A stretch of 64,000 nucleotides of DNA from Arthrobacter sp. MYb213 (GTDB taxonomy: Bacteria > Actinomycetota > Actinomycetes > Actinomycetales > Micrococcaceae), in NCBI RefSeq assembly GCF_002979915.1, contig NZ_PCQA01000002.1:124001-188000 (forward strand), given 5' to 3'. The notes under the pieces were generated by a model that saw only the letters and a list, made by a program, of their open reading frames with translations, did not search any database and had not been told where the DNA came from. Shown here in pieces: positions 24,000 to 36,779 of this stretch. A program made the position numbers and the translations under genes. Numbering within the stretch: position 1 is the stretch's first letter; each line of letters opens with the position of its first letter.

Positions 24000-24235
24000 C
24001 AAAGTACCTCGCAAATTAAGAACCTTTGAGTACCTCGACAACAATAGGGGGCGGTCCGAAGCAGAACAAGGACCATGGTTTTAGTCTGTCGGAACGTCCC
24101 CTGCGAATCAGGTGGTGAAGCCAAAGCAGATCTAGAGCAATGAGCCTAGATTACTTAGACTTCGAATATAAATTCCACCAAGGTCTGATACGTAGCAACT
24201 TCATGACGCTTCCACGCTCTAGCCGTAGATTGTCC

Positions 24236-24727
24236 TCACCCTTGGTACTTCGTCAACAGAGAGGTGGGAAGGTGGCAGGAATCCTCGGGGAAACGTGCGA
24301 GCCGGTCTTGATGCTCTTCCGCGCTTCGCACATAGGTGGCAAGCGGCAGTACCTCGACCGCGATGCGATCCGCATCATCCCTCTCAGCGATGAACGCCCG
24401 AGCCTCGTCGAGGTGGGCCGGCGTAGTGGAATACACACCAGTGCGGTACTTCAGACCGGTATCCGGTCCCTGGTGGTTCACGCTGTAAGGATCGATAATT
24501 TCAAACAGGTACGCCATCAGTTGCTCGACATTAACAACCGTCGGATCAAAACGGGTTCGAACGCATTCCGCATAACCGTCGTAGTCGCTATCGATGTCTC
24601 CGCTGGCACCGTTGGCTCTTCCAGCTTCCGTGAATGTCACGCCGTCCAGCGTCGCGATGAAAGCCTGCACACCCCAGAGGCAACCGCCGGCCAAATAAAT
24701 CTCTTCAACCTCACGCTGCGCATCCAT
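24236..24727 (-). CDS. msrA: Peptide methionine sulfoxide reductase MsrA
   Basis: Reduces the S-diastereomer of methionine sulfoxide in proteins. Active-site motif AGGCLWGVQAF is at about residue 14; most MsrA have GCFWG, so Phe is Leu here, but the catalytic Cys is kept. Further family blocks are SDYDGYAECVRTRFDPTVVN, LMAYLFEIIDPYSVNHQGPD and GLKYRTGVYST. The start is taken at MDAQREVEE; two upstream in-frame Met codons are possible. The C-terminus lacks the common resolving-Cys tail, apart from DSCHLPTS. Confidence 0.85.
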   Translation of the reverse strand: MDAQREVEEIYLAGGCLWGVQAFIATLDGVTFTEAGRANGASGDIDSDYDGYAECVRTRFDPTVVNVEQLMAYLFEIIDPYSVNHQGPDTGLKYRTGVYSTTPAHLDEARAFIAERDDADRIAVEVLPLATYVRSAEEHQDRLARFPEDSCHLPTSLLTKYQG

Positions 24728-24804
24728 AATGCCGATCTTACTGCCAGCCATGTGTGGAGCCATCGTTGGATGAAGCGATACTCAGGCACGACGTTCTCCG
24801 GTAT

Positions 24805-25164
24805 CTACCGGTTCTGACGAACTGTCGTCAGCTCAACCCGGTCATTTCCAACCGCATCACAGGTGATCGTCGTATCGGCAATCGTGAAGCTATTGCCCTG
24901 AGTACAAGTTGGTTCTACCCCTCCTGCTTGGAAATGGGCTTCGCCACCTTCCAACGCCGACACTAGGCGAATGCGGTCTGCGGAGCGCAACCCATGGTCG
25001 CTGTTGTAAGGTCGCGGGAAGCTGTGGAACTGGTCACCTTGAATCATGATTGAACAGTTGCTCTTCGTATCGCATTTGGAACTCCACCTGTCGCAGGCGG
25101 TCAACGGCAAGACGAGGACAGCGATAGCGGTGGTAGCAAGAAATGCTCGGGTAGGGTGTCGCAT
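24805..25164 (-). CDS. Putative lipoprotein
   Basis: Secreted lipoprotein of 119 residues. The signal peptide MRHPTRAFLATTAIAVLVLP ends in the lipobox LTAC, so the mature protein would be anchored to the membrane through Cys24. The mature part contains four further cysteines (SSKCDTKSNC, PTCTQG, ITCDAVG), suggesting two disulfides. Not recognised otherwise. The Met at 25164 is used because it begins the signal peptide; the open frame extends 26 codons upstream. Confidence 0.65.
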   Translation of the reverse strand: MRHPTRAFLATTAIAVLVLPLTACDRWSSKCDTKSNCSIMIQGDQFHSFPRPYNSDHGLRSADRIRLVSALEGGEAHFQAGGVEPTCTQGNSFTIADTTITCDAVGNDRVELTTVRQNR

Positions 25165-25613
25165 GCGCCTCGCGTCCTTCAATATCTGGGTTATGGATAG
25201 AACTCGCTCCGGGCGGCTGATCTGCTCCGCTCTGGACTTCACGAGACGGTCAAGCTCAGATGCATAATACTTGCCCCACTTAGCCTACCTAGTGACGCAC
25301 TGAGCGGTCGAAACGAGGACGCGAAGGACCCTGACTTTGTTTAGCCAGCTCCTTATGAGGCATCCGTCGGCCTTGTTTCCACAGACCCTACGACTTCACC
25401 GCTACGAAGCTGAGCGACGCAAGCGCCTAATGAGTTGTGAGAAATACTGCTGAAGACGAGCACGAGGCTAAAGGCCGCCAAGCGTTCAGTGTGGTCAGCC
25501 CGAGCGCAGGGCGGACATAATCCTGCAGCTGGTGCCAGTGGAATATTCTTCACGGATTGAATGTTGCCGATTAATGGCACATGCCGCATTTTTACCCGTA
25601 GAAAGATTGATAA
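25165..25613. other. Gene-free stretch
   Basis: No supported gene. A minus-strand frame at 25353-25589 has no recognised motif or ribosome-binding site. Promoters for the lipoprotein (leftward) and the SDR gene (rightward) must lie here, but I see no convincing boxes. Confidence 0.35.
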
Positions 25614-26309
25614 ATGAGCACGCTAGTGATTGTAGGAGCGGGGCCAGGGCTCGGACTCAGTCTTGCTAAGAAGTTCGGCAAGAAGAACTTCAATGTAGCT
25701 TTGATCGCACGGAATCAAGAGAGTCTCGACAACTTCCAGAGCTCGTTGTCTGAAATGAATATCAAGAGCGCGGGCTTCGCTGCCGACGTGACGAATGAGC
25801 AACAGATTGCGGATGCGTTCTCACAAGTGCGAGCAACGTTCGGCCAGATTGATGTACTCGTCTACAACGCAGGCGTGATCGCACCGGTTTCTGCCGCGCA
25901 GACAACAGCACAAATTGCGAATCAGCACATGCAGGTGAATATCATTGGCGGAATCTCGGCCGCACAGCAGGTGATTCCTGAGATGGTTGAAAGACAGCAG
26001 GGAGCCATCTTCTTCACCGGCGGTGGAGCTACCGAACTAACCGTGACCCCAATCTTGACTACGTTGAGCATTGGCAAGTCAGGACTGCGCAGTTACGCGC
26101 ATTGCCTCCACGAGGAGCTGGCGACCCAGGGAATCTACGTGGGCATGCTTTCCATCGCGGGAGTCATCGAAGAAGGAACATACTTCTCCCCCGACAATAT
26201 AGCGGACGAATACGTTGATATGTACGAGAAACGTGATGGCGCTGAACGCTTTTATATCGACGAATCTGAGGATTCGGATGCAGTTTTGAAGGACACCTAC
26301 ACTAACTAA
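25614..26309 (+). CDS. SDR-family protein with altered catalytic motif
   Basis: Short-chain dehydrogenase fold of 231 residues. The cofactor loop VIVGAGPGLGLSLAKKFG (GxxxGxG), LIARNQE and VLVYNAGVIAP are classical. In the catalytic region, TPILTTLSIGKSGLRSYA aligns with PxxxxYxxxK, with the Tyr replaced by Leu while Lys is kept. Such Tyr-less members exist, often still binding NAD(P). The substrate is unknown. It is the last gene before the ychF-tail array and points toward it. Confidence 0.8.
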   Translation: MSTLVIVGAGPGLGLSLAKKFGKKNFNVALIARNQESLDNFQSSLSEMNIKSAGFAADVTNEQQIADAFSQVRATFGQIDVLVYNAGVIAPVSAAQTTAQIANQHMQVNIIGGISAAQQVIPEMVERQQGAIFFTGGGATELTVTPILTTLSIGKSGLRSYAHCLHEELATQGIYVGMLSIAGVIEEGTYFSPDNIADEYVDMYEKRDGAERFYIDESEDSDAVLKDTYTN

Positions 26310-26551
26310 GTTGCGACCTGAGCTGACCATCCTCACGTGGCAGCTCAACCTGGGCTAATAGGTCATTCAACGTACTTCCCAGGAGCTAAACAATCTGGCA
26401 CTATCACTGCTAGAAAATGAAGCCTCTATATTGAATGCCACGCTACAGACAAGGGCGCCATCCGGTCTGAGTAACCGGATTCACCATAGCCTGATTAAAT
26501 CGCATGATATGACCGTAGCAATAGTAAAAGAACGCCTCTTAAATGAGTTTC
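26310..26551. other. AT-rich spacer at left edge of array
   Basis: Visibly AT-richer than neighbours; no gene recognised. It ends in the hairpin at 26552-26578. Confidence 0.35.
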
Positions 26552-26578
26552 GCTCTGACCATCAGTGATGGCCAGAGC
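26552..26578 (-). terminator. Hairpin terminator, probable ancestral ychF terminator
   Basis: GCTCTG-A-CCAT pairs with ATGG-C-CAGAGC around CAGTG. It lies 24 bases after the stop codon of ychF-tail copy 1 on the minus strand, where a ychF terminator would be expected. It may also terminate the SDR gene from the other side. Confidence 0.6.
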
Positions 26579-26601
26579 AAAACACAATACCGCTTGATGA
26601 G

Positions 26602-26646
26602 TTAGACGTTGAAGCGGAACTCCACGACGTCGCCGCACGTACCAAC
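26602..26646 (-). repeat. ychF-tail direct repeat, copy 1 (left end of array)
   Basis: Contains the shared 20-mer ACGTTGAAGCGGAACTCCAC (26606-26625). Read on the minus strand it encodes GDVVEFRFNV and TAA, the YchF C-terminus. It is followed rightwards by CACGTACCAAC, an arm also seen in copies 3 and 5. 33 bases (26606-26638) are identical to copy 5 (32625-32657). Confidence 0.9.
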
Positions 26647-26653
26647 TTCACGG

Positions 26654-27112
26654 TCAGAGCGGCAGCCCGTCCTCATCTTCATCATCCGGCGTGATGATCA
26701 TGCCTTCGTGAGTTACTGTCGCGCCAATCATCTTGCCTCTCTTATCGAGGAAGACCACGTCAACATCACCCAGCCCAGTCCATTGCTCTGAGCTCGTGGC
26801 CTCAGGAAAGAAACATCCAAGACTGTCAATGGCTCGGATAATGTCGCGATCGTAGGCAAACCTCCGCCTGATCACCGTTGGACGTGGCCGAAAATAATAA
26901 CCGTTCCCAGGCTCAACGCCGACCGTTCGGGTAGATTTCAGATGCGCCAACTGCTCCAGCAATGGGTGGTCGTCATCGCCGTTATTAAAGACAAAATCTA
27001 CGTAAGCGGTATCCGGCCGAAGTGAGTGCATCCACGCGGACTGCTCAGCGCGTGATATGACCTTCCCATACCCAGAAGACAAGGTCGGCTCCTTTGAAGT
27101 TTTGTAAGTCAA
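26654..27112 (-). CDS. Module A: hypothetical protein
   Basis: Sole gene of module A, 152 residues, acidic C-terminus (PDDEDEDGLPL). It has short conserved-looking blocks: TAYVDFVFNNGDDDHPLLEQ, YYFRPRPTVIRRRFAYDRDI and LGDVDVVFLDKRGKMIGATV. No family recognised. Its stop lies 8 bases from the end of tail copy 1, so the cassette is compact. A stand-alone cargo gene of this size could be an immunity, anti-phage or regulatory protein; none is supported. Confidence 0.65.
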   Translation of the reverse strand: MTYKTSKEPTLSSGYGKVISRAEQSAWMHSLRPDTAYVDFVFNNGDDDHPLLEQLAHLKSTRTVGVEPGNGYYFRPRPTVIRRRFAYDRDIIRAIDSLGCFFPEATSSEQWTGLGDVDVVFLDKRGKMIGATVTHEGMIITPDDEDEDGLPL

Positions 27113-27212
27113 TGAGCTTTCAGATTACCGACAAGTGGGACGAACCCGCACCAAAGTGCAGATCTAGCCCTCTCCGCGACGATACCTAACTCATGGTTAG
27201 AGCGGAACGCGA

Positions 27213-27256
27213 TTAGACGTTGAAGCGGAACTCCACCGAGTTCCAGTACAAGCCAA
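27213..27256 (-). repeat. ychF-tail direct repeat, copy 2
   Basis: 20-mer ACGTTGAAGCGGAACTCCAC at 27217-27236. The minus strand reads NSVEFRFNV and TAA. The first 32 bases equal copy 3 exactly. Beyond the stop, on the module A side, AGCGGAACGCGA precedes it, a feature shared with copies 5 and 6. Confidence 0.9.
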
Positions 27257-27276
27257 CGTCTGACTGCAACGCACTC

Positions 27277-28269
27277 TCAGGCCCAGAGCCGGCTGTTGTC
27301 CTGCCAGCCGTCGGGGACGCCCATGTGCATAATCGGGACAATCTGGACCACCGGAAAGCTCGCCACAACCGCGGGGAGAAGTCTGCTGCGACCAGTGCCC
27401 AACCTGTCAGATAGGAACTGCACCAGCGTGAGTTGGCCGAACGTGCGGCTCCAGTCCGCCGACACGGCATCGAGGTCCGGGTGGCGACCGAGCTTAGGGA
27501 GCTTGGGCGTAATCGTATGGACGCGGTTGAACAAACGTCCGTGATGTCCACACGTATTTCTCACGAGATTGAGCGACTTGAGCCAACTAGTCAGCTGGGG
27601 CGCACTGAGCCCGCATGCATCGGCAACGACGTCTTGGGCGCCACGAGGGGCAAAGCCATAGAGATATGTCAGGCTTCCCCAGTCCAGCAGATCAGTTGCT
27701 GCCCATACCGGTAGCTTCCCGCCATACTTCTTGTGGTGGTGCTCCACGAAGTCCTCACGCGACCGGTTCAGCTCGTCCTCGTAACGATTCAGCCATTTTG
27801 AATACCCACCGCCACTGCGCGCGGTGGGACCCATCAATGAAGATTGCAAATGAGCGCAGGGATCAATGCGCCCGAGCTCATGTCCGAGTAGCGCGCGAAT
27901 GGCCAGCTCTACCGGAGCCAGCGCTGCAAACGTGGCGGCGCGAAGGCGCGCATCGAACTCGTATAGAGCAACGACATCGCTGAAGCGCGTGCCAGCGTAA
28001 AAGTCATCGTGACGACCATCGGGAGCCTGCCTCCTGAACGGGTACCAGTAGCCGCTCAATCGGTAGTAGTTCACTCTCCGGAGTGTCGCAACGGCGGAAC
28101 CTTGGTCTCCCATATCCATGCCGCGGTCCGCAAGGATCTTCACTTGCTGGGTGTAAGACTTGTAGATCTTGACGTCTTCGACGAGGAACACCGCCTGACA
28201 AAAATGAGGACCGGCCCTGGACCTACCGAGGTAGGCGGAACCGGTCTTAGTGGTTTCTATCTTACGCAT
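27277..28269 (-). CDS. Module B: Abi_2-family abortive-infection protein with HEPN motif
   Basis: Abortive-infection protein of the Abi_2 (AbiD/AbiF) family. The N-terminal KSYTQQVKILADRGM and NYYRLSGYWYPFR blocks and the YEFDARLR helix are diagnostic. Near residue 237 it carries RNTCGHHGRLFNR, the RxxxxH motif of HEPN ribonucleases, so an RNA-cleaving role after phage infection is predicted. The start is uncertain: ATG 28269 is used, but family alignments begin near residue 30 and a GTG at 28191 would also fit. The stop lies 20 bases from tail copy 2. The partner gene is divergent on the other side of a 470-base gap. Confidence 0.85.
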   Translation of the reverse strand: MRKIETTKTGSAYLGRSRAGPHFCQAVFLVEDVKIYKSYTQQVKILADRGMDMGDQGSAVATLRRVNYYRLSGYWYPFRRQAPDGRHDDFYAGTRFSDVVALYEFDARLRAATFAALAPVELAIRALLGHELGRIDPCAHLQSSLMGPTARSGGGYSKWLNRYEDELNRSREDFVEHHHKKYGGKLPVWAATDLLDWGSLTYLYGFAPRGAQDVVADACGLSAPQLTSWLKSLNLVRNTCGHHGRLFNRVHTITPKLPKLGRHPDLDAVSADWSRTFGQLTLVQFLSDRLGTGRSRLLPAVVASFPVVQIVPIMHMGVPDGWQDNSRLWA

Positions 28270-28742
28270 ACGGCTAGAAACGCGCAACGCGCGATGGTTC
28301 TAACCGCGCATTGTTGATTGGAGCGTTCAGACGCGATTCTTATAGGTCATATGCTCACCCGGCCCTTCAAATGGAGGGCTTCAAGGTGATCCTGGGAACT
28401 CCTACCTACGCACGCGACACAGCCAAATCCATCGTCATGATTCGAGGCCTCGCAGCCCAACTTGAAACGAACCCAGTTTTTCAGATCGTCTCCGGTTCGG
28501 CCGCAGCCGATGTGTTCGCAGCTCATGCTTGCGACTTCGTGAACGAACACGAAGCCTATTCCCCAAGGAATTAAGATACTTCCCACCAAGGATCTGAAGA
28601 CAGGGAAGGTAAAAGTAAACGAAAGACAACCTCATTTAGTCGACGTAGGAACCGATCCAAGTGTGCAGCCCAGTCGTTTAGCTCTAACTTGCGACGACCG
28701 TAGTACAGGAGCCCGAAGTGGAGTCGATGAGATAATGAGGTC
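28270..28742. other. Divergent intergenic region of module B
   Basis: Lies between the Abi_2 gene and the 28743 gene. Open frames exist on both strands (plus 28311-28574; minus 28347-28589) but neither has a ribosome-binding site or known motif and I cannot decide between them. It should contain both promoters. Confidence 0.35.
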
Positions 28743-29513
28743 GTGAATGCACTCTCAGATCGAGCCGAGCAGATCGCCGCGCACCTCGTCGGATACGAAA
28801 CGGGTGCAGCAGTCGTTCCGTACGACACCGACGGCCGTCAAGCTGCTGTCGACTTCTTACTCAAGTGGCCCGATGGCCGGGTCGGCGTTCTGGAGGTCAC
28901 GCTCGTGACGGAGCGAGCTTCAATCGAGTGGCAGGGCATGGCGATGAAGGATGGCTGGAGATGGCCGACGGAGACGTCTTGGGAGTTCAGGCCAAACAAC
29001 GTGAACTTCGCGTATAAGGACACCAAGCGAGTGGCGATCAGGGCTGTATCATTGTGCGATCAATGGTCCGTGGACACCCCAGCGAATCTTCCATCCGAAG
29101 TTCTGGATCGCGGACCGGAGCTCGCAAGGTTCTTGGCGGACGATGTCGGGGACCTCAGGCGCACACCAGTCTCGTCGGGGATCAAGCTGTACCAGAGCAC
29201 GACGGCTGAATTCGTAGACGCTGCACCTGCGGACTTCTCGCGAGTTGTGGAGTCCTGGCACGAGCATCCGCATCTTGCACCTCATCTGGCGAAGGTGAAG
29301 CGCGCATCGCAATCGGACGAGCAGCTCCTATTTGTGGTCGTCGTGAGCGAAGCCTTGCCCGTTCGCTTCTTCGCTGACGACTTCGATGTGCCAGCGACGC
29401 CACCGCAAGGGTTCGAGGGTCTGGATGCACTCTGGGTCTGGTCCGACTACTGGCACCGCTATCTGGTCTACCGGGCGAAGACCTGGGCATGGGTCGACTT
29501 CCCACCGAATTAA
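28743..29513 (+). CDS. Module B: hypothetical protein, possible nuclease fold
   Basis: Soluble protein of 256 residues, GTG start. The segment AVDFLLKWPDGRVGVLEVTL (residues 35-54) has the spacing of a PD-(D/E)XK core (Asp37, Glu51-x-Thr53), with Thr in the Lys position, so catalysis is uncertain. The C-terminal half has FEGLDALWVWSDYWHRYLVY, seen as a closing strand in some nuclease-like proteins. It shares module B with the Abi_2 gene and may be part of a two-component defence unit; this is inferred from location. Confidence 0.65.
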   Translation: MNALSDRAEQIAAHLVGYETGAAVVPYDTDGRQAAVDFLLKWPDGRVGVLEVTLVTERASIEWQGMAMKDGWRWPTETSWEFRPNNVNFAYKDTKRVAIRAVSLCDQWSVDTPANLPSEVLDRGPELARFLADDVGDLRRTPVSSGIKLYQSTTAEFVDAAPADFSRVVESWHEHPHLAPHLAKVKRASQSDEQLLFVVVVSEALPVRFFADDFDVPATPPQGFEGLDALWVWSDYWHRYLVYRAKTWAWVDFPPN

Positions 29514-29625
29514 GCGTTGTCGCTAGATGACAAGACCGATACACCGTGAACGGAATCCCCTTTTTGAGAAGTAAGATTTTCCGTTCGGCGCTATTTTGCA
29601 GTTCATCAACTTCGCACGCAAAAAC

Positions 29626-29654
29626 GCCCCCGGGTTCGCATAGAAACCGAGGGC
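29626..29654 (-). terminator. Terminator after tail copy 3
   Basis: On the minus strand GCCCTCGGTTTC pairs with GAACCCGGGGGC (two mismatches) and is followed by GTTTTT. It starts 17 bases downstream of the stop of tail copy 3, exactly where a ychF terminator would sit. Confidence 0.75.
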
Positions 29655-29671
29655 GCCAAAGCTAAGAAGTC

Positions 29672-29717
29672 TTAGACGTTGAAGCGGAACTCCACCGAGT
29701 TCCGGCACGTACCAACC
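29672..29717 (-). repeat. ychF-tail direct repeat, copy 3
   Basis: 20-mer at 29676-29695. Minus strand encodes NSVEFRFNV and TAA. It ends in the arm CACGTACCAACC. Confidence 0.9.
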
Positions 29718-29824
29718 GCTGGGTGCCGAACCGGAGCCACGAATCAATCCACCGACCACCTGGCACCTCGCGGGCACCAGCCCAGGTCGAGCACAGAGTT
29801 GTGCCATCTGCGATCGAAGCATAA

Positions 29825-29842
29825 AATGAACAGAAATTCATT
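29825..29842 (+). promoter_or_regulatory. Inverted repeat, candidate TetR operator
   Basis: AATGAA and TTCATT are separated by six bases, directly after a TAAAAT -10-like box (29822) and 12 bases before the TetR start. Position and symmetry fit an autoregulatory operator. Confidence 0.45.
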
Positions 29843-29854
29843 GAAAGGATCTTC

Positions 29855-30460
29855 GTGCCGCGGACGACGGAACAGAATGAAGCGTTGCGTTCAGCCACAC
29901 GCGCTGCTGTGGAGACGGCCGCCGTCCGGGTCTTCGCACACCGTGGTTTCGCGGCCACGAACATGCGTCAGATCGCCGTCGAGGCGGGGATCAGCGCTGG
30001 GTCGATCTACCGGCACTATGCGAGCAAGGAAGAACTGTTCGATGAACTAATCGATCAGGCCTCACGCGGGCTCGAGGCTGTCGCCGTTCAGCTCTCGACC
30101 GAAGGGGATCCGCTCTCCATGATCCAATCCTTCACCGAGGTATACGTGGCAGACCTCGCAGCGAACAACGGCGCGGCCGAGTTCTACATGGTGATCAACC
30201 AGGGCTTCTCGACGGACACTCCTGAGGGGACTGCGGCGCGACTGGCCGCAACGCAGGGGACGCTCTGGCGGGCCTTCGCCTTGCTCATCGGTCGAGGCCA
30301 GGCCGCAGGCCAAATCACCGCGGGCGACCCAACCCGAATGACTTCTCACTACTTCGCCATGCTTGCCGGTATAACGACGATGCACGTTGCTCTTCGGGAG
30401 GGATTTGCGGAGCCCGATGTCGAGCTGATCCTACGAATGTTCACAGGAGGACCCCGATGA
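29855..30460 (+). CDS. Module C: TetR-family regulator
   Basis: TetR repressor of 201 residues with GTG start after GAAAGGA. The helix-turn-helix lies at residues 18-62: AAVRVFAHRGFAATNMRQIA followed by VEAGISAGSIYRHYASKEEL. The ligand-binding half is full length and ends EGFAEPDVELILRMFTGG. It overlaps the acetyltransferase gene by 4 bases (ATGA), so it probably controls that gene together with itself; the ligand is unknown. Confidence 0.9.
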   Translation: MPRTTEQNEALRSATRAAVETAAVRVFAHRGFAATNMRQIAVEAGISAGSIYRHYASKEELFDELIDQASRGLEAVAVQLSTEGDPLSMIQSFTEVYVADLAANNGAAEFYMVINQGFSTDTPEGTAARLAATQGTLWRAFALLIGRGQAAGQITAGDPTRMTSHYFAMLAGITTMHVALREGFAEPDVELILRMFTGGPR

Positions 30461-31059
30461 AGATCGAAGTCGCGCGCGCAGACGAACTGGGTGAGGGGTA
30501 TCGGCACAGGATCGCTGAAGTTCTCACGCAAGGGTTCGCCGAGGATTTCGCGTTCTTCTCCAAGGACTCCGGTGTGCTTGCCGACGCGTTCGCCCCGATG
30601 CTCATCCTGGAGCGCTTCCACGTCGCGCTCGTCGACGGCGAGCCGGCCGCGGTCGCGGTCGTCACCGAAGGCGAGCAGGAGTGCTTCGAGCCGGATCGGC
30701 GCGAGCTCCAGCGCGTGCTCGGTCCAATACACGGCATGATCAGCTATCGGATCATCCGCAGTCAATTCATGGGGGCCTATGACGGTGCCCGCACCGGTCT
30801 GACGGAGATTGCGTTCGTCACGACAGCGCCGCAGCATCAGGGCAAAGGCGTAGCCACTGCGCTGATGCGCCGACTCCTGGAACTGCCCTCCGACGAGTTC
30901 GTGCTGCGCGACATCAAGGACACCAACACCCCAGCCCTCGGGCTGTACGCCAAGCTCGGCTTCACCGAAACACAGCGGCGACGCATCAAGTTCGCGAAGC
31001 GAGCGGGGTTCTCCGCGTATGTCTTCATGGGGCTCAACCGCGCTCAGGCTGATGTTTGA
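30457..31059 (+). CDS. Module C: GNAT N-acetyltransferase
   Basis: GNAT enzyme of 200 residues, co-transcribed with TetR. Acetyl-CoA loop: TEIAFVTTAPQHQGKGVATA (about residues 108-127, QHQGKG = Q/RxxGxG/A). Motif B: DTNTPALGLYAKLGFTE near residue 152. The acceptor is unknown; the TetR pairing suggests an inducible detoxification or resistance role. A hairpin follows the stop. Confidence 0.85.
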   Translation: MKIEVARADELGEGYRHRIAEVLTQGFAEDFAFFSKDSGVLADAFAPMLILERFHVALVDGEPAAVAVVTEGEQECFEPDRRELQRVLGPIHGMISYRIIRSQFMGAYDGARTGLTEIAFVTTAPQHQGKGVATALMRRLLELPSDEFVLRDIKDTNTPALGLYAKLGFTETQRRRIKFAKRAGFSAYVFMGLNRAQADV

Positions 31060-31065
31060 AGAGCG

Positions 31066-31086
31066 TCCGGGCTCGACAGGCCCGGA
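31066..31086 (+). terminator. Hairpin after GNAT gene
   Basis: TCCGGGC pairs with GCCCGGA around a seven-base loop. No long U-run follows, so it may act as either a terminator of the GNAT gene or of the tail copy 4 on the minus strand. Confidence 0.5.
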
Positions 31087-31119
31087 AGCGCGCTTCTGGG
31101 CTGTCCTCAAGTCCGCACT

Positions 31120-31165
31120 CTAGTTCGAAAATCTAAACTCCACCACGTCGCCGCTCTTACCAACC
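31120..31165 (-). repeat. ychF-tail copy 4, diverged
   Basis: The 20-mer is not kept, but the minus strand reads GDVVEFRFSN followed by TAG, using other codons (TTT AGA TTT for TTC CGC TTC). It ends in the same arm, TACCAACC. It is therefore a YchF tail of another lineage, not a mutated copy of its neighbours. Confidence 0.8.
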
Positions 31166-31240
31166 TCTCAGTACCCGGCGAATCCCCGAAGCGTCGACCC
31201 TCTCCTGGCCCAGCGAACACCAAACTCGCCGAGCAATTAG

Positions 31241-31283
31241 GCAACCCAGGTTGACATCCGGCCACTTAGCAACATAGGTTGAC
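31241..31283 (+). promoter_or_regulatory. Promoter with duplicated operator for module D
   Basis: GCAACCCAGGTTGAC (31241-31255) and GCAACATAGGTTGAC (31269-31283) are direct repeats; each is also a near palindrome (CAACC..GGTTG). The first overlaps a TTGACA -35 (31251-31256) and the second a TAGGTT -10 (31275-31280, 18-base spacing). Transcription would start about at the ATG at 31287, giving a leaderless mRNA. The arrangement strongly suggests repression by the HTH protein encoded just downstream. Confidence 0.6.
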
Positions 31284-31286
31284 GAC

Positions 31287-31532
31287 ATGGAGTCTCCGCT
31301 GATCGCAGCAGTAGCAGCCGATACCAGCGACCCGAAAGCAGGATTGCGGGCCGTAGCGTCCTTGCGCGTGCTCGCTGACACCTTGGAACTTCGGCAGGTC
31401 GAGGCCGCGTTGCGTTCGGGCATGAGTTGGCAGGAGATCGCCGACGCGCTCGGAGTGACGCGACAAGCTGCCCACAAGAAGCACTCCAAAAGAATTGACC
31501 CCGCGATCTCGACACCCAGGAGGAACAGATGA
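31287..31532 (+). CDS. Module D: small HTH regulator
   Basis: DNA-binding protein of 81 residues. The region LELRQVEAALRSGMSWQEIADALGVTRQAAHKKHSK (residues 34-69) contains a sigma-70 region 4-like or MarR-like helix-turn-helix with the typical SWQEIADALGVTRQA recognition pair. It overlaps the Clp_N gene by 4 bases. In other actinobacteria such small HTH proteins precede Clp_N-domain genes; a repressor role on the duplicated operator is inferred. Confidence 0.8.
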   Translation: MESPLIAAVAADTSDPKAGLRAVASLRVLADTLELRQVEAALRSGMSWQEIADALGVTRQAAHKKHSKRIDPAISTPRRNR

Positions 31533-32518
31533 ACAAACTCGTCCGCGCCGCTCAGACCAGCCAATCGCTTTCCCTGGCCGCCATGGAGGAAGCATCCCGG
31601 CTCGGGCTCTGCGAAGCCGACATCGACCACCTGTTCCTCGCATTGGTCATCAACGACCAGTCTGCCGGCCGCGCACTGCGCGAGCTGGGTATCGACATTG
31701 ACAGCGCCCGTCTCGCCGTGGAGGACCAACATGATGCACAGCTGACTTCACTCGGCATCGAGGCGTCGTTCCCCGAGGCCGGGCGCATCGTGTTCCATGA
31801 GACGGATGGGTACGAGTGGACTCGTCGCGCTCGGGACCTCATCGCGAAATCCAGCAGCAAAGGCAAGTCGGGCGACGCTGCCGCCGTTCTCCGGGAACTC
31901 GTCGCAGAGCCCAGCGGCCTGATCACGGATATCCTCGGCCGCCTTGGCACGACATCCGAAGCGCTCATCGAACGACTCGATCGGGCCGACTCGCCCTCCA
32001 TGAAGTCCATGCCTCTCGCAGCGAAAGTGAAGGGGCGGACCACGGGAACGATTGAGACTTTCGTATCCGCACCATTGGACGAAGTGTGAGCGTTCCTCAC
32101 AGATCCCGCACGTATCCCCGAGTGGGAACCGAGCATCGGCACCCTCGACCAGACCGGTCAAGAAGCGATGCCGGGTACGGTCTGGGAGGGCACGGCACCC
32201 GCAATCTATCCAGACGGCAAACCTGTGAAGATCAAACCTCAGTTTCGTCGACGCAGTGTTGAGCTCATCGCAATTCACCCACCGGACAGGATCGCATGGA
32301 GCTTTGGCTATCCCGACGTCGCGCAGGGTAATTCGATTCTGACTGAATTCACCTTGGCGAACGTGACCGGTGGCACACAGCTGCGGATCAGCAGGTCCTG
32401 GTCGCGACGCCAAGGGTGGCGAGGACTTGTCGCATGGCCGCTGCGTCCAGTCCAGAAGTTCCTGGTGTGGATCACCCTGTTCCAGACCGGCAGCGCGATC
32501 AGCCGAACATTTCGCTAG
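31529..32518 (+). pseudogene. Module D: Clp_N-SRPBCC fusion gene with in-frame UGA
   Basis: A Clp N-terminal-like domain (LSLAAMEEASRLGLCEADID, HLFLALVINDQSAGRALREL, residues 14-60, and a second repeat near 100-150) runs into a START/SRPBCC domain. The reading frame is interrupted by a single TGA at 32087-32089, at FVSAPLDEV-stop-AFLTDPARIPEW, where the family almost always has Trp (TGG). The frame then stays open to 32518 (WSFGYPDVAQGNSILTEF, ISRSWSRRQGWRGLV). So it is either a G-to-A nonsense mutation or the product is a truncated 186-residue Clp_N protein. Residual intactness suggests a recent event. Confidence 0.75.
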
Positions 32519-32561
32519 TCCCAGGCGCGGCGACTCGCCTGCTGGTCGCACATAGATCGAA

Positions 32562-32591
32562 TGCCCGGCTCTCCACAGGGAGATCCGGGCA
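32562..32591 (-). terminator. Terminator after tail copy 5
   Basis: TGCCCGG-CTCTCC pairs with GGAGAT-CCGGGCA around ACAG with one mismatch. On the minus strand it is followed by TTCGATC, and it lies 30 bases after the copy 5 stop. It may also end module D transcription. Confidence 0.65.
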
Positions 32592-32603
32592 CTCGAGCGG
32601 GAC

Positions 32604-32666
32604 ATTGAAGCGGAACGCGACTACACGTTGAAGCGGAACTCCACGACGTCGCCGCACATACCAACC
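32604..32666 (-). repeat. ychF-tail direct repeat, copy 5
   Basis: 20-mer at 32625-32644; minus strand GDVVEFRFNV and TAG. A second short version of the tail (ATTGAAGCGGAACGCGA, minus strand coding FRFNV) lies right beside it at 32604-32620. 40 bases (32615-32654) are identical to the native ychF end at 35688-35727. It ends in ACATACCAACC. Confidence 0.9.
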
Positions 32667-32695
32667 TTTGCTTGCGGTGTTGCGAGGGGTTGTCG

Positions 32696-35158
32696 TTAGC
32701 GGCGTCGCTTGCCCCTCTTCTTCGGCTTCCGACTCGGATTCTGCCTGGCGGTCGCTCTTCGCGCCGACGGTGGGGTCGGACGACTCATTGCAGCCGGAGG
32801 GATGAGGCCCATCTCCACAATGAGGCTGTCAAACTCTTTGTTCTCTACCGGAGGCGAGTTGTCATAACGGATCGATACGATGCGCTGCTCCTCATCGAAT
32901 ACCACCATGAGCGCACGATCCGACTGAATCTGGTGCTTCTTCGCGAATCCGTAGGTCGCGAGCCGGGTGCTAGCCTCTTGGATAGACATCTTTCGAGGTT
33001 TGGAGCCCATGAACAACGTCGGGTAGCCCCACGCTCCGGCGAACGCCATCATCGAATTGTGGTGGAGGCCGTCCTGCCGTGTCATCAACGCCAAGCGTTC
33101 GACCATCTCACCCAGCGACTCCTGCGACTCCTCAGCAAGGTTCAACAGATCGGCGCTGAAGCGGAACCACCCCGGCTTGTGCCCATCCTGAAGGAAGTCT
33201 ACAATCCGGGCGATGCCCGGCGGGATGCCGAAGGAAGGCTTCTCAGCTTCTACAGCGCTAGAGCCTTCCTGGAAGTAGACCCAAGCATCCAACTCATCGG
33301 TTTGAGTCATCACACGAGTGGGAACATCCGACACCTGATACCGGCGACGCTCCTTGCCCGTGGAAGGCGCGACGCCAAGGAACTCTTCGCTTACCCGATC
33401 TGGGTCCGGTTCAACCCACAAGCCGCCGGAGAGAAACAGCATGAAGAGATCGAGCTCGTCGACGGCTGAGAACTTCAGCGACACTTCTGACTCTGTACGA
33501 CGTCGCAGATAGAGCAAGAACTCCGTGGGCCTATCGATGACCTCGGCAATGACGCTCAGGTCGTGCAACGTCACGAGCCAAGGGAAACGATCGCTTCCCA
33601 CGACCTTGGCACGCACGAGTTCGTCCAAGGCAGTGGACAGCGGGCCGAAGTCGTCGAGGTAGACAGTCACCGAGCGAATCTCGTGGATCTCCGAGAGATC
33701 CAGCCATTCGCGATTCTCAAGCCACAGCCCGTGATTGGTTCGGATATGGTTCTCAAGCCTGAGTGCCTGGTCAGTCGCGCTCCCGACCGTCTCCCGCAGG
33801 TCGGCAGACAACCTCTGGACATGCCCACGCCGGGCGTGACTGGAGATGCTCTTTGCCTTCACTTCTACGCAAATCGCGACATCCTCGATGATGAATAGCC
33901 CATCTGCTTCAGTCTGCTCGGCGATCGAGTTGATGTCTTGCGCATCGGGTCCGAGCTCAGAAACCTCGATGCCCGGATTGGCGCGGAAGTATTTGAGGTT
34001 CGCGTGGGCTGCATCTGAGTCTAGGATGGCGGCCAGACGCTTCAGAGCGAGCTCCTCACTTACGAACATGCGGCGCTTCTCATAACGGCGAAACTTTGCG
34101 GGGGCCGCCTTGAGTGCCTCTTCGACGATCTGACGGAAGCAGTCGGTGCCGATCGGCTTGCCTGTCAGGATGTAGTTGCCGTCGGCGTCATTGACCAGCG
34201 ATGCAAAGCGGAACGGGTTATCGCCGCTCAGGTACTTCGTCACTACGGCAAGCGCGTCGTCAGCGCCGTTGAACGCCAGGCTGAACCGATCCAGAACGGC
34301 CTGGGTCCGCTCTGCCGGCACACCCGAAGCTGCGGCAACCTCTTGAACAGTGATGGTTGCGCGCTCGCCAGGAAACTCCAACAAGCTCATCAAGGCGGAG
34401 CGCGCGTCCTCTTCAAACGCAGGATCGTTCTTCTTCTCGGCATGCTGTTCGAACATCTCGCCGACGGTGTCGCGGATAGCGAAGAACTTCTCCCCGTGGA
34501 CGCGAATGATTGACTCACGCACGGCGCAGAAGTCCTCGTAGCTGAAACCAAGCGTCTCGGGGAGCAAATCACCGAGGTGGCGCGATGAGAACAGCTCCTC
34601 GTTGATCTCGTCATGGATATGCGCGTACTGCATGAACCGCACTGTCAGATCGTGACTGACGAATTGGGCGGACAACATGGTCAGCGGTCCGAATTCGTTT
34701 CGATCACCCGAACTGAATAGGGCGAAGGAGCCCAGCATCAACATTTCCCGCGCCCGTTCATGCAGGTCGGGAATCAATCCCGCAGGGCGGGTCTTGCTCG
34801 TCGGCGTCGACCTAGGCTCGCGCTGCCCCCTGGTGAGCAGAATGAGCGCAATGAGTTCGACCGCTGCTGGCATCTGATCAGCAAGGCTTTCGCGGTAGCC
34901 ATCGAGGATCATCGGCATCTCGCGCATCCGCATGAGCTCGATCACGTCGAAGGCGTCAGCGTCCTTCAATGAGTCCGCGATGGCCTTGACATGCTCGGCG
35001 ATTATCGTTGGGCCACGAAGTAGGTACTCCCTCGGGTTCTCCCCCTCGTTCATTCGACCAAGCATTTCCCCCATGCGTTCAAAGGCCACGGCCAGACCCT
35101 CATCATCGGCCGTGACGATTCGTCGCGAAGGCAAATCGCGACCCTGCTTCTTCTCCAT
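32696..35158 (-). CDS. Module E: large protein with PD-(D/E)XK-like motif
   Basis: Protein of 820 residues, single gene of module E. The motif EADGLFIIEDVAICVEVKAK near residues 415-435 fits a PD-(D/E)XK nuclease core (Asp in ADGLF, Glu-x-Lys in EVKAK). The N-terminal 400 residues are helical; the region after 650 contains WGYPTLFMGSKPRKMS; the tail is very basic (ARRATARQNPSRKPKKRGKR), probably for nucleic-acid binding. No helicase or recombinase motif is seen. Start ATG 35158 follows AGGGGAG; another in-frame ATG at 35182 has no such site. A stand-alone anti-phage nuclease is the best guess. Confidence 0.75.
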   Translation of the reverse strand: MEKKQGRDLPSRRIVTADDEGLAVAFERMGEMLGRMNEGENPREYLLRGPTIIAEHVKAIADSLKDADAFDVIELMRMREMPMILDGYRESLADQMPAAVELIALILLTRGQREPRSTPTSKTRPAGLIPDLHERAREMLMLGSFALFSSGDRNEFGPLTMLSAQFVSHDLTVRFMQYAHIHDEINEELFSSRHLGDLLPETLGFSYEDFCAVRESIIRVHGEKFFAIRDTVGEMFEQHAEKKNDPAFEEDARSALMSLLEFPGERATITVQEVAAASGVPAERTQAVLDRFSLAFNGADDALAVVTKYLSGDNPFRFASLVNDADGNYILTGKPIGTDCFRQIVEEALKAAPAKFRRYEKRRMFVSEELALKRLAAILDSDAAHANLKYFRANPGIEVSELGPDAQDINSIAEQTEADGLFIIEDVAICVEVKAKSISSHARRGHVQRLSADLRETVGSATDQALRLENHIRTNHGLWLENREWLDLSEIHEIRSVTVYLDDFGPLSTALDELVRAKVVGSDRFPWLVTLHDLSVIAEVIDRPTEFLLYLRRRTESEVSLKFSAVDELDLFMLFLSGGLWVEPDPDRVSEEFLGVAPSTGKERRRYQVSDVPTRVMTQTDELDAWVYFQEGSSAVEAEKPSFGIPPGIARIVDFLQDGHKPGWFRFSADLLNLAEESQESLGEMVERLALMTRQDGLHHNSMMAFAGAWGYPTLFMGSKPRKMSIQEASTRLATYGFAKKHQIQSDRALMVVFDEEQRIVSIRYDNSPPVENKEFDSLIVEMGLIPPAAMSRPTPPSARRATARQNPSRKPKKRGKRRR

Positions 35159-35633
35159 GACACTCCCCTTTTGTCCATACAAACCGCAGCTATTGGATTT
35201 CTACCCCACCACGCGACCCTCCGGGCCGCCTGGGAGTTCTATTCCTCTGCCAGGAGGGTGTGGTGTTGAGTGGCGCAGGAGGCGAATGTGAAGGCACGCT
35301 CGGGGTGACCCTTTACCGACTCACACAGGATCTCATCACTCAACGGCCCTGTCAGCGTACACAACCAGGCCTAGAGTATCCAGCCGCCCATACCAGTATC
35401 TGTCAGAGTCTTCACCATGGCAGACACGCCAGGACCGATCTGGCCGTCCTTGATAAACTTCATGGACGGGCTGAACACCTCCCATCACCGCAGGACTCCT
35501 TCACCGCGCGCTCAGCAACAGAATAGGATCGGGACTGTTCCTCTGTCGATGGGCACAGCACTTCCGATCGATCAAATCTTTGATCCTGAATCTGAAGACC
35601 AGTCACGGATTCAATACCCCGATTGCGGAGACA
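35159..35633. other. Non-coding part of module E
   Basis: About 475 bases upstream of the 820-residue gene. A plus-strand frame from 35417 (MADTPGPIWPSLINF...) runs into the tail repeat, without a ribosome-binding site, and is not called. No promoter boxes stand out. Confidence 0.35.
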
Positions 35634-35668
35634 AATGCGCCGGACCCGACAATCGGATCCGGCGCATT
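35634..35668 (-). terminator. ychF terminator
   Basis: AATGCGCCGGA pairs perfectly with TCCGGCGCATT around 13 bases. It is 26 bases past the ychF stop on the minus strand; TTTG follows. Confidence 0.8.
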
Positions 35669-35677
35669 CGCAAGAGG

Positions 35678-35727
35678 TTAAAGCGAAACGCGACTACACG
35701 TTGAAGCGGAACTCCACGACGTCGCCG
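35678..35727 (-). repeat. ychF-tail copy 6: native 3' end of ychF
   Basis: 20-mer at 35698-35717, stop TAG at 35694-35696. On the ychF side the gene continues normally after GTCGCCG; the other copies switch to the CACGTACCAACC arm at that point. Left of the stop it has AGCGAAACGCGAC, shared with copies 2 and 5. Confidence 0.9.
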
Positions 35728-36779
35728 TCTTTCATGATGTATTCCTTGCCTTCGATGCGTGCCTTACCGGCAGCCTTCGCATTGGCAATAGAACCAACCT
35801 CAACCAGGTCTTCAAAGCCGACAACCTCAGCCTTGATGAAGCCACGCTGGAAATCGGTGTGGATCACACCGGCTGCCTCAGGTGCGGTCGCACCCTTGGA
35901 AATGGTCCAAGCGCGAGTTTCCTTCGGGCCAGCGGTCAGGTAGGTCTGCAGGCCCAAGGTGTCAAAACCGACGCGGGCCAGCTTGCCCAGTCCGGACTCG
36001 ACGATGCCTGCATCTTCCATCATCTCTGCTGCTTCGTCTTCTTCCAGCTCAGCGAGTTCGGATTCGAACTGTGCGTCAAGGAAGATTGCTTCGGCCGGTG
36101 CGACGAGCTCGGAGAGCTTCGCCTGCATCTCGGTGTCGGCCAGACCAGCCTCATCGGTGTTGAACACGTAGATGAACGGCTTGGTGGTCATCAGCTGCAT
36201 TGGTGCGAGCTCTTCGAGGTCAACACCCTTGGTCTTCGCCGCGGCGAAGAGCGTGATGCCCTCTTCGAGGATCTTCTGCGCATTGAGTACCGCGTCCAGG
36301 AAGGACTTCTCGATCTTCTTGGTGCGCAGCTCCTTTTCCAGACGCGGAAGCTGATTTTCAATGGTCTGCATGTCGGCGAGGATCAGCTCGGTGGCGATCG
36401 TCTCGATATCCGAGGCAGGGTCCACCTTGCCGTTGACGTGAATCACGTCGTCGTTGACGAACGCGCGAGTCACCTGGCAGATCGCGTCGGCTTCACGGAT
36501 GGTGGCCAGGAACTTATTGCCCAGACCTTCACCTTCCGAAGCACCCTTGACGATGCCGGCGATATCCACGAAGGACACGGTTGCTGGAAGGATGCGCTCG
36601 GAACCGAAGATTCCGGAGAGCACCTTCAGACGCGCGTCCGGCAGTGGGACGACGCCCACGTTAGGTTCGATAGTCGCGAACGGGTAGTTGGCTGCCAGCA
36701 CCTGGGCGTTGGTCAGCGCGTTGAACATGGTGGACTTGCCGACATTGGGCAGTCCGACGATTCCGATAGTAAGAGCCAC
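35694..36779 (-). CDS. ychF: Redox-regulated ATPase/GTPase YchF
   Basis: Obg-family P-loop NTPase of 361 residues that binds ATP and ribosomes. G1 GLPNVGKSTMFNAL (residues 8-21), the switch region NYPFATIEPNVG, G3 DIAGIVKGASEGEGLGNKFL and the G4-like NTDE (YVFNTDEAG), which gives ATP preference, are present; the TGS domain follows and the chain ends GDVVEFRFNV. The gene is complete. Its last 30 codons serve as the attachment region of the cassette array downstream. Confidence 0.97.
   Translation of the reverse strand: MALTIGIVGLPNVGKSTMFNALTNAQVLAANYPFATIEPNVGVVPLPDARLKVLSGIFGSERILPATVSFVDIAGIVKGASEGEGLGNKFLATIREADAICQVTRAFVNDDVIHVNGKVDPASDIETIATELILADMQTIENQLPRLEKELRTKKIEKSFLDAVLNAQKILEEGITLFAAAKTKGVDLEELAPMQLMTTKPFIYVFNTDEAGLADTEMQAKLSELVAPAEAIFLDAQFESELAELEEDEAAEMMEDAGIVESGLGKLARVGFDTLGLQTYLTAGPKETRAWTISKGATAPEAAGVIHTDFQRGFIKAEVVGFEDLVEVGSIANAKAAGKARIEGKEYIMKDGDVVEFRFNV

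Follow-up and report, generated by a model that had tools for sequence, protein, structure and literature searches.

A probable site-specific cassette array behind ychF in Arthrobacter and the large serine recombinases that may serve it

The window analysed here, a stretch of 64,000 nucleotides from Arthrobacter sp. MYb213 (contig NZ_PCQA01000002.1), contains the gene ychF and, behind its 3' end, a row of six modules of 0.6-3.1 kb bounded by the ychF end, five copies of its tail and a decayed sixth copy. Based on a comparison with the regions downstream of ychF in related genomes, and on a family of large serine recombinases (LSRs) encoded at the same place, we believe that this row is probably a cassette array formed by site-specific recombination at the end of ychF. 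In what follows, G numbers denote genomes (G000 being that of the window), L numbers loci and C numbers contigs.

The array downstream of ychF

The target gene, ychF (35694..36779), is an open reading frame of 361 amino acids on the minus strand, as are all features of the array; a ychF match was found in 38 of 38 genomes. The putative crossover dinucleotide, GT at 35716-35717, lies 19 bp before the stop codon of ychF, and the 3' end itself (Site 0, 35694..35744) is an intact attB-type junction (B.B') with the tail EFRFNV* and, behind it, a strong hairpin (-36.8 kcal/mol over 70 nt). Cassette 1 (32645..35715; 3.07 kb; module E of the original prediction), which encodes a single protein of 828 amino acids, extends to Site 1 (32621..32671; GT 32643-32644), a junction of P.B' type. 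Behind it lies Cassette 2 (31144..32642; 1.50 kb; module D) with a Clp_N-domain gene and a small gene that has a weak helix-turn-helix match below the Pfam cut-off, and then Site 2 (31120..31170; GT 31142-31143), again P.B' but with the diverged tail EFRFSN*. Cassette 3 (29696..31141; 1.45 kb; module C) carries a TetR-type regulator and a GNAT acetyltransferase and is bounded by Site 3 (29672..29722; GT 29694-29695), a P.B' site of the CGGAACTCGG type. An uncharacterised protein of 256 amino acids and an abortive-infection-type AbiD/Abi_2 protein (27277-28287) are encoded in Cassette 4 (27237..29693; 2.46 kb; module B), which ends at Site 4 (P.B', 27213..27263; GT 27235-27236), and an uncharacterised protein of 152 amino acids in Cassette 5 (26626..27234; 0.61 kb; module A), which ends at Site 5 (P.B', 26602..26652; GT 26624-26625). 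Finally, Cassette 6 (24179..26623; 2.44 kb) holds a short-chain dehydrogenase, a peptide methionine sulfoxide reductase (MsrA) and a frame of 145 amino acids, and the decayed Site 6 (24155..24205; GT 24177-24178; tail EFIFEV*) marks the far end of the recognisable array.

The repeats on which the original prediction was based are largely as it described them. The 20-mer ACGTTGAAGCGGAACTCCAC lies at exactly 26606, 27217, 29676, 32625 and 35698 and nowhere on the opposite strand of the window, a diverged further tail copy lies at 31121-31164, and module B is flanked by identical repeats of 32 bp (27213-27244 and 29672-29703). The flanks of module E are likewise identical repeats, although of 41 bp (32614-32654 and 35687-35727) rather than the 40 bp originally given, and the C-terminal peptide thought to be the same in every copy is EFRFSN* in the copy at 31142 and EFRFNV* in the others. 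The left end of the array had been placed at 26602. Since the decayed site at 24155-24205 continues the array past this point, the dehydrogenase and MsrA genes lie inside a sixth module, and the hairpin stretch at 26552, previously taken for the outer flank, is instead the start of this further module, given the site at 24177. In G009, a stretch similar to this hairpin region (tcatcacgcggtattg) also follows a tail copy and has more sites behind it.

Attachment sites and cassettes in related genomes

A weight matrix was built from the sites of the window; as it includes the tail, it favours sites with intact tails. In 20 ychF-downstream regions it found 89 sites on the same strand as ychF and none on the opposite strand, a bias beyond what chance would give. 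The larger set of 97 ychF regions (90 of the host family and 7 of other families, hand-chosen rather than random, and including every genome known to carry a full-length LSR) gave 273 sites, every one of them on the ychF strand; 96 are the own ends of ychF genes and the rest are displaced sites. Displaced sites above 30 bits occur in 57 of the 97 regions, with up to 11 in a row. The 101 displaced sites above 40 bits have a common upstream motif, AGAGGTT..T..GTGC followed by CGGAAC.. or GGCGAC.., which is absent from ychF. Above this motif they have nothing in common and no homology to ychF, and conservation falls to background past the stop codon; the likeness between the tail copies and the ychF end extends over about 33 nt.

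A control matrix made from the upstream half alone, and thus blind to the tail, found 153 same-strand and 26 opposite-strand matches, so that about one in six of its matches may be false. EFRFNV comes next in 72 of the 153, and a stop codon stands exactly at codon 7 in 119. The 70 tails that read EFRFNV* are written in 43 different DNA spellings, the variation being mainly at third codon positions. Folding after the stop is stronger at displaced sites than at random (mean -26.2 versus -22.3 kcal/mol; 101 versus 582 stretches), a moderate enrichment in hairpins with -22 kcal/mol or lower being reached by 65% of the displaced and 49% of the random stretches; in the window, ychF and five of the six displaced sites reach -24.7 kcal/mol or lower. 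Given the codon-wise conservation, the stop and the stronger folding, the left end of each cassette resembles an entire ychF 3' end, one that has served or could serve as such.

Pairs of junctions that are alike on one side only locate the point of exchange. There are 24 pairs alike on the downstream side only and 219 on the upstream side only; 202 of the latter compare two own ends of ychF and were set aside, leaving 17. In these pairs identity gives way to difference at or beside the GT, as in the comparison of G033 with G009, in which upstream identity runs through ...CGGAACTCGGT and divergence follows immediately. By all signs, the GT dinucleotide 19 bp before the ychF stop codon is where LSRs of the family at this site would cross over.

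Taking as a cassette any 300-9000 bp between consecutive sites above 24 bits, we excised 138 cassettes with a median length of 1607 bp. Eleven groups of cassettes occur in at least two species (the relatives compared are different species, not strains within one species); five of these groups span genera and one of the five spans families, and recurring cassettes often stand at other ranks. Four of the six cassettes of the window have relatives in other genomes: Cassette 1 in G004 and in G050 of another genus (g34), Cassette 2 in G009 and G011 (rank 1 in both) and in G051 (rank 3), Cassette 3 in G009, G017 and G001, and Cassette 5 at rank 11 in G009. Cassettes can be more alike than the ychF genes they follow, namely 99.8% versus 90.4% identical between G000 and G004, 98.1% versus 88.9% between G000 and G011, and 97.7% versus 75.1% between G009 and G033, which belongs to another family. 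The make-up of the rows also varies, G009 having D-C-y at the place where G011 has D-y.

Empty and alternative states of the site, for which the original prediction had called, were both found. In three pairs of close relatives, with ychF 97.5-98.6% identical, one site is empty and the other occupied, and the occupied state starts at the GT; the pairs match at 99.5% over 800 bp (G191/G202), 95.7% over 795 bp (G152/G103) and 95.9% over 800 bp (G077/G119). Other relatives carry different modules, so that a fixed set of five modules shared by all is not what is seen. Together with the GT breakpoints and the LSR family described below, these states uphold the proposed serial site-specific insertion at the ychF 3' end, and, as judged from sequence comparison, they establish that single cassettes are present or absent, and are shuffled, between species and families.

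Serine recombinases and their elements at ychF

Within the 20 regions, matches to PF00239 belong to a large protein that also has PF07508 in G008 and G016. Further PF00239 matches there are small or broken resolvase-type genes inside L044 (G014) and L035 (G016). When 197 genomes of the host family were searched with the G016 enzyme (E<=1e-40), relatives were found in 21; those of 10 genomes are full length, and in the other 11 the match is confined to the N-terminal part. Nine of the ten full-length LSRs share a contig with ychF and are 0.06-19 kb downstream of it, and the tenth, in G196, is on another contig. One of the partial matches is a more distant serine recombinase (G146:C1:2318686-2319258) some 20 kb downstream from ychF in a genome with displaced sites, possibly a second recombinase type using the ychF site. 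In the remaining cases ychF is remote from the match, on a different contig or unlisted.

A search of a collection of named genomes returned 75 LSR loci, of which 73 were confirmed by tblastn. In 43 of these ychF lies inside the fetched DNA, and in all 43 the LSR is downstream of the ychF 3' end, its middle being less than 1 kb from that end in 16. The genera among these loci are Rothia, Brevibacterium, Kocuria, Corynebacterium, Gordonia, Nocardia, Cutibacterium, Schaalia, Microbacterium and others. The architecture PF00239 plus PF07508 was seen in two LSRs, and the best match by sequence to a solved structure is the catalytic domain of TP901-1 integrase. In an alignment of nine ychF-type LSRs the C-terminal halves are alike and the N-terminal catalytic domains fall by eye into three kinds, as if catalytic domains had been swapped onto a conserved DNA-binding part.

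Elements that encode an LSR can be recognised at both ends. At the left end, the ychF tail is usually exchanged for an ending of the EFR(H/T/S)G..TS..K type, for example FRTGLTSGSKK, FRHGITSAAQGKK and the like in L046, L035 and L075. Of the 97 regions, 80 have an intact attB-type end as their first junction; the 17 in which this junction is not EFRFNV* include all 11 with a full-length LSR as well as G146, where it is EFRFAI*. The right end, where found, has the same P half as the cassettes, mostly followed by a ychF tail. In the fetched DNA of 12 of the 43 named loci a right end complements the left at 14-19 of 26 positions, for which the best value with reversed sequence was 9. In G175 the LSR element stands first at ychF and further sites lie behind it.

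When the two ends of an element face each other, the result is palindromic over about 50 bp, with the GT in the middle. Similarly, among 69 LSR-bearing viral loci there are 32 matches to the core, six of which are palindromic at 11 or more of 24 positions; of 20,700 centres drawn at random, 930 reach this value. Each of the six is 39-88 bp away from the LSR match. One (L227) is an attR ending in EFRFNV*, and the other five are attP-like. According to the cited account of serine integrases, an LSR dimer touches 50 bp of attP around a central dinucleotide (PMC3783163). The predicted attP of the ychF elements is of this form, being palindromic over some 50 bp around a central dinucleotide and differing from attB. 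As far as sequence can tell, the analysis establishes ychF as the target, the crossover position, the presence of this LSR family there, the elements that encode it and their palindromic attP.

The LSR elements have the appearance of mobilizable defence islands. In a set of 84 proteins from 14 LSR loci, two or three of which have weakly supported right ends, there are 11 resolvase and 10 recombinase domains, 8 ArdA, 4 NikA-like, 2 Mob_Pre and 2 relaxase matches, and many restriction-modification proteins.

Other candidate movers were considered and rejected. A search of 20 genomes for tyrosine recombinases (PF00589) gave no match inside the 20 ychF regions. A helper encoded on a plasmid was not supported, as no LSR relative was found at E<=1e-40 among 72,556 plasmid records; among phage records 17 have an LSR match, and the 10 of these 17 that are listed are 27-29% identical. 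The large serine recombinase encoded elsewhere in the genome of the window (a 497-amino-acid frame on C9 of G000, noted at 378147-378581) was rejected as a helper since it is 24-31% identical to the ychF type and no ychF-type core was found in the 6 kb fetched around it.

Movement of the cassettes, related systems and cargo

We propose that cassettes have been assembled site-specifically at the ychF 3' end into an array served by LSRs that cross over at the GT, the cassettes being moved in trans or as passengers, and we put the probability of this reading at about 0.7. Autonomous elements, comprising an LSR together with ArdA, relaxase or restriction genes, are arranged as ychF-B / P' ... P / B'-old tail and mostly substitute their own C-terminus for that of YchF. 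The small cassettes lack the LSR and share the P right end, and their left end is a spare ychF tail with its stop and often a hairpin. Because this end brings a spare tail, ychF stays whole and an attB-type junction (B.B') is regenerated. Two routes for the orphan cassettes may be inferred, a trans-acting integrase or hitchhiking. In the former, circles with a P.B' site would recombine with B.B' or with another P.B'; in the latter, cassettes would be enclosed by the B.P' junction of an arriving LSR element on one side and a distal P.B' site on the other, and the LSR element would leave later. Either way, the array would serve as a stepwise gene-capture site, often for anti-phage genes.

Several observations weigh against this proposal. 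In the genome of the window no relative of the LSR was found at E<=1e-40, and the large serine recombinase that it does encode is the divergent one described above. Full-length LSRs are present in 10 of 197 family genomes whereas displaced sites above 30 bits are present in 57 of 97 regions. Among the named loci, ychF lies outside the fetched DNA in 30 of 73 (six of these 30 correspond to genomes with ychF 10-19 kb away), 31 of 43 gave no convincing right end within the DNA that was fetched, and the RFNV* end is kept in at least two, L178 and L199. A strict intact P.P' pattern was found in none of the collected viral contigs. Some breakpoints, such as that between G000 and G004, are blurred by identical tails on both sides, and one junction in G051 has AA instead of GT. 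Finally, the cited account states that serine integrases refuse pairs other than attP x attB unless an extra factor is present (PMC3783163), so that recombination of P.B' with B.B' would be unusual.

If such hybrid sites were accepted, the arrays could amount to integron-like gene capture in Actinobacteria, with orphan cassettes, each made up of a spare ychF 3' end, its cargo and one attP half, captured, shuffled and handed on singly at ychF by trans-acting LSRs; we regard this extension as tentative and would rather doubt it than assume it. A soberer account is that LSR elements once brought in blocks of genes and that the cassettes are now dead remnants, varied by homologous recombination or slippage at repeats of 20-41 bp and by import of flanking DNA. 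Direct repeats of this length do flank the modules, most of the arrays examined lack an LSR, sites visibly decay (as at 24177 in the window) and some breakpoints, such as that of G000/G004, cannot be placed within the repeat. However, breakpoints fall at the GT despite few identical bases around it, as between D-C-y and D-y, single cassettes stand at varied ranks with other neighbours across genera and even families, and codon-wise conservation of the tails would not be expected of remnants long dead. We therefore consider this account unlikely, if worth keeping in mind.

Alternatively, another, unrecognised recombinase might move the cassettes, with the LSR elements merely sharing their target. 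The array of the window lacks an LSR, a different serine recombinase is encoded elsewhere in the same genome, and the left ends of the cassettes are of the B' type while those of the LSR elements are of the P' type. Against this, cassettes and LSR elements have one and the same type of half-site at their right ends and the same switch point, the 20 regions examined gave no PF00589 match, and no recombinase is found among the 25 commonest of 99 Pfam families in 120 cassette-region proteins, all of which makes such an enzyme quite improbable. Simple tandem duplication of the ychF 3' end, or its gene conversion, could account for the 33-nt likeness of the copies and for longer ychF pieces in modules elsewhere (G211 and G017), but not for a common non-ychF motif upstream of tails that have no ychF homology beyond it, nor for modules that are unlike each other and differ between species; we give it hardly any credence. 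For the window, where the upstream half-site is not derived from ychF, duplication of the ychF end is ruled out, in answer to a doubt raised with the original prediction. The longer pieces are an observation in their own right: sites 6828 and 11020 of L089 (G211) have longer parts of the ychF end upstream of the crossover, and a displaced site in G017 has a ychF fragment of 69 amino acids there (C10:15738-15944), so that a few modules do hold copied ychF DNA.

Among the closest known systems are those built around staphylococcal cassette chromosome (SCC) elements. The cited passages on SCC, pseudo-SCC and composite islands at rlmH/orfX and on the Enterococcus cassette chromosome describe insertion at a 3' end that leaves the target gene intact, direct repeats, large serine recombinases, tandem arrangement, some elements lacking a recombinase, and restriction cargo (PMC6243372; PMC6222049). 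The analogy with SCC drawn at the outset holds for the restored gene end, the direct repeats on both sides and the tandem or composite layout, but not for the target or the recombinases. Four LSRs scored 25-81 bits against the NCBIfam CcrA, CcrB and CcrC models, whose cut-offs are 700-900, and the target is ychF, not rlmH/orfX; membership of the SCC family was therefore rejected. Furthermore, the ychF system is found in another phylum, and has one LSR gene per element where seen; its cassettes, with a median of 1.6 kb, are much smaller and form rows with as many as 11 displaced sites. On sequence grounds we would describe the hotspot as SCC-like but served by non-Ccr serine integrases.

The streptococcal cis-mobilizable elements (CIMEs) are similar in another respect. 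In the cited passages they are recombinase-free, keep their att sites, measure 1.2-13 kb with cargo and lie at a gene's 3' end next to functional integrative mobilizable elements (PMC5704250; PMC7563491). Stepwise capture at ychF would resemble CIME accretion, or the growth of composite SCC islands, and the array of the window likewise lacks recombination and transfer genes, a scan of the genes in it having given no PF00239 or PF00589 match. In contrast to decayed elements of that kind, which keep attL and attR, a ychF cassette has an attR-like right end (P.B') and an attB-like (B.B') rather than an attL (B.P') left junction, the attB type of first junction being the one seen in 80 of 97 regions, and ychF cassettes occur singly in different genera and families.

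The ychF LSRs themselves resemble the phage serine integrases of phiC31, Bxb1, A118/LI and TP901-1 in the combination of PF00239 with PF07508, a dyad attP of about 50 bp and a central dinucleotide. Unlike these, they share one location across many genera, occur in both mobilizable defence islands and viral contigs, and are accompanied by rows of orphan cassettes. Integrons, too, are rows of small cassettes with sites all pointing one way; unlike them, the ychF arrays have no tyrosine integrase match in 20 regions, and their sites look like LSR half-sites. Three features of the ychF arrays are unusual: most cassettes lack a recombinase, ychF is left with an attB-type end, and the tails are conserved codon by codon. 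In the full-text literature, with subscription papers, preprints and supplements outside its reach, ychF was found as an attachment site only for pneumococcal prophages. The cited passages place the attB of one of these, PPH005, between a DUF951 gene and ychF, where the ychF promoter is affected (PMC8637289; PMC6375853), that is, beside ychF but at the other end of the gene, and report that growth of a pneumococcus is unimpaired by deletion of ychF (PMC6375853), a reservation on the label of an essential-type gene used in the original prediction.

A hotspot of gene exchange in many actinobacterial genera thus gains a precise address and boundaries. The LSRs, with a predicted attP and a conserved attB, would be useful genetic tools in actinobacterial hosts, and whether LSRs can use hybrid attachment sites and what role the replaced YchF C-termini play are questions raised by this work. 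The boundaries allow uncharacterised cargo, such as the 828-amino-acid protein of Cassette 1, to be delimited and screened for anti-phage function; that protein has no match at the thresholds used in Pfam, PADLOC or NCBIfam, and its PDB matches are at chance level. The cargo of the window otherwise comprises the AbiD/Abi_2, Clp_N, GNAT, TetR, short-chain dehydrogenase and MsrA proteins and at least three uncharacterised proteins. Elsewhere the defence proteins include Hma-like, type IIG, type III and GmrSD ones, among others.

At E<=1e-10, a random 120 of 191 cassette-region proteins matched 91 PADLOC families versus 8 for a random 120 of 774 controls; these are counts of families, not of their members or of proteins, because one protein may match several families. 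The cassette set, from which the joined loci L075, L077 and L079 were excluded, contains some chromosomal genes (four DUF3090) where a weak distal site stretched the array. In Cassette 2 of the window (31529-32518), the Clp_N gene has 186 amino acids and is followed by a separate frame of 116 amino acids, whereas the same cassette in G009 has a single gene of 329 amino acids with Clp_N and Polyketide_cyc2 domains; the split in the window is probably due to a frameshift.

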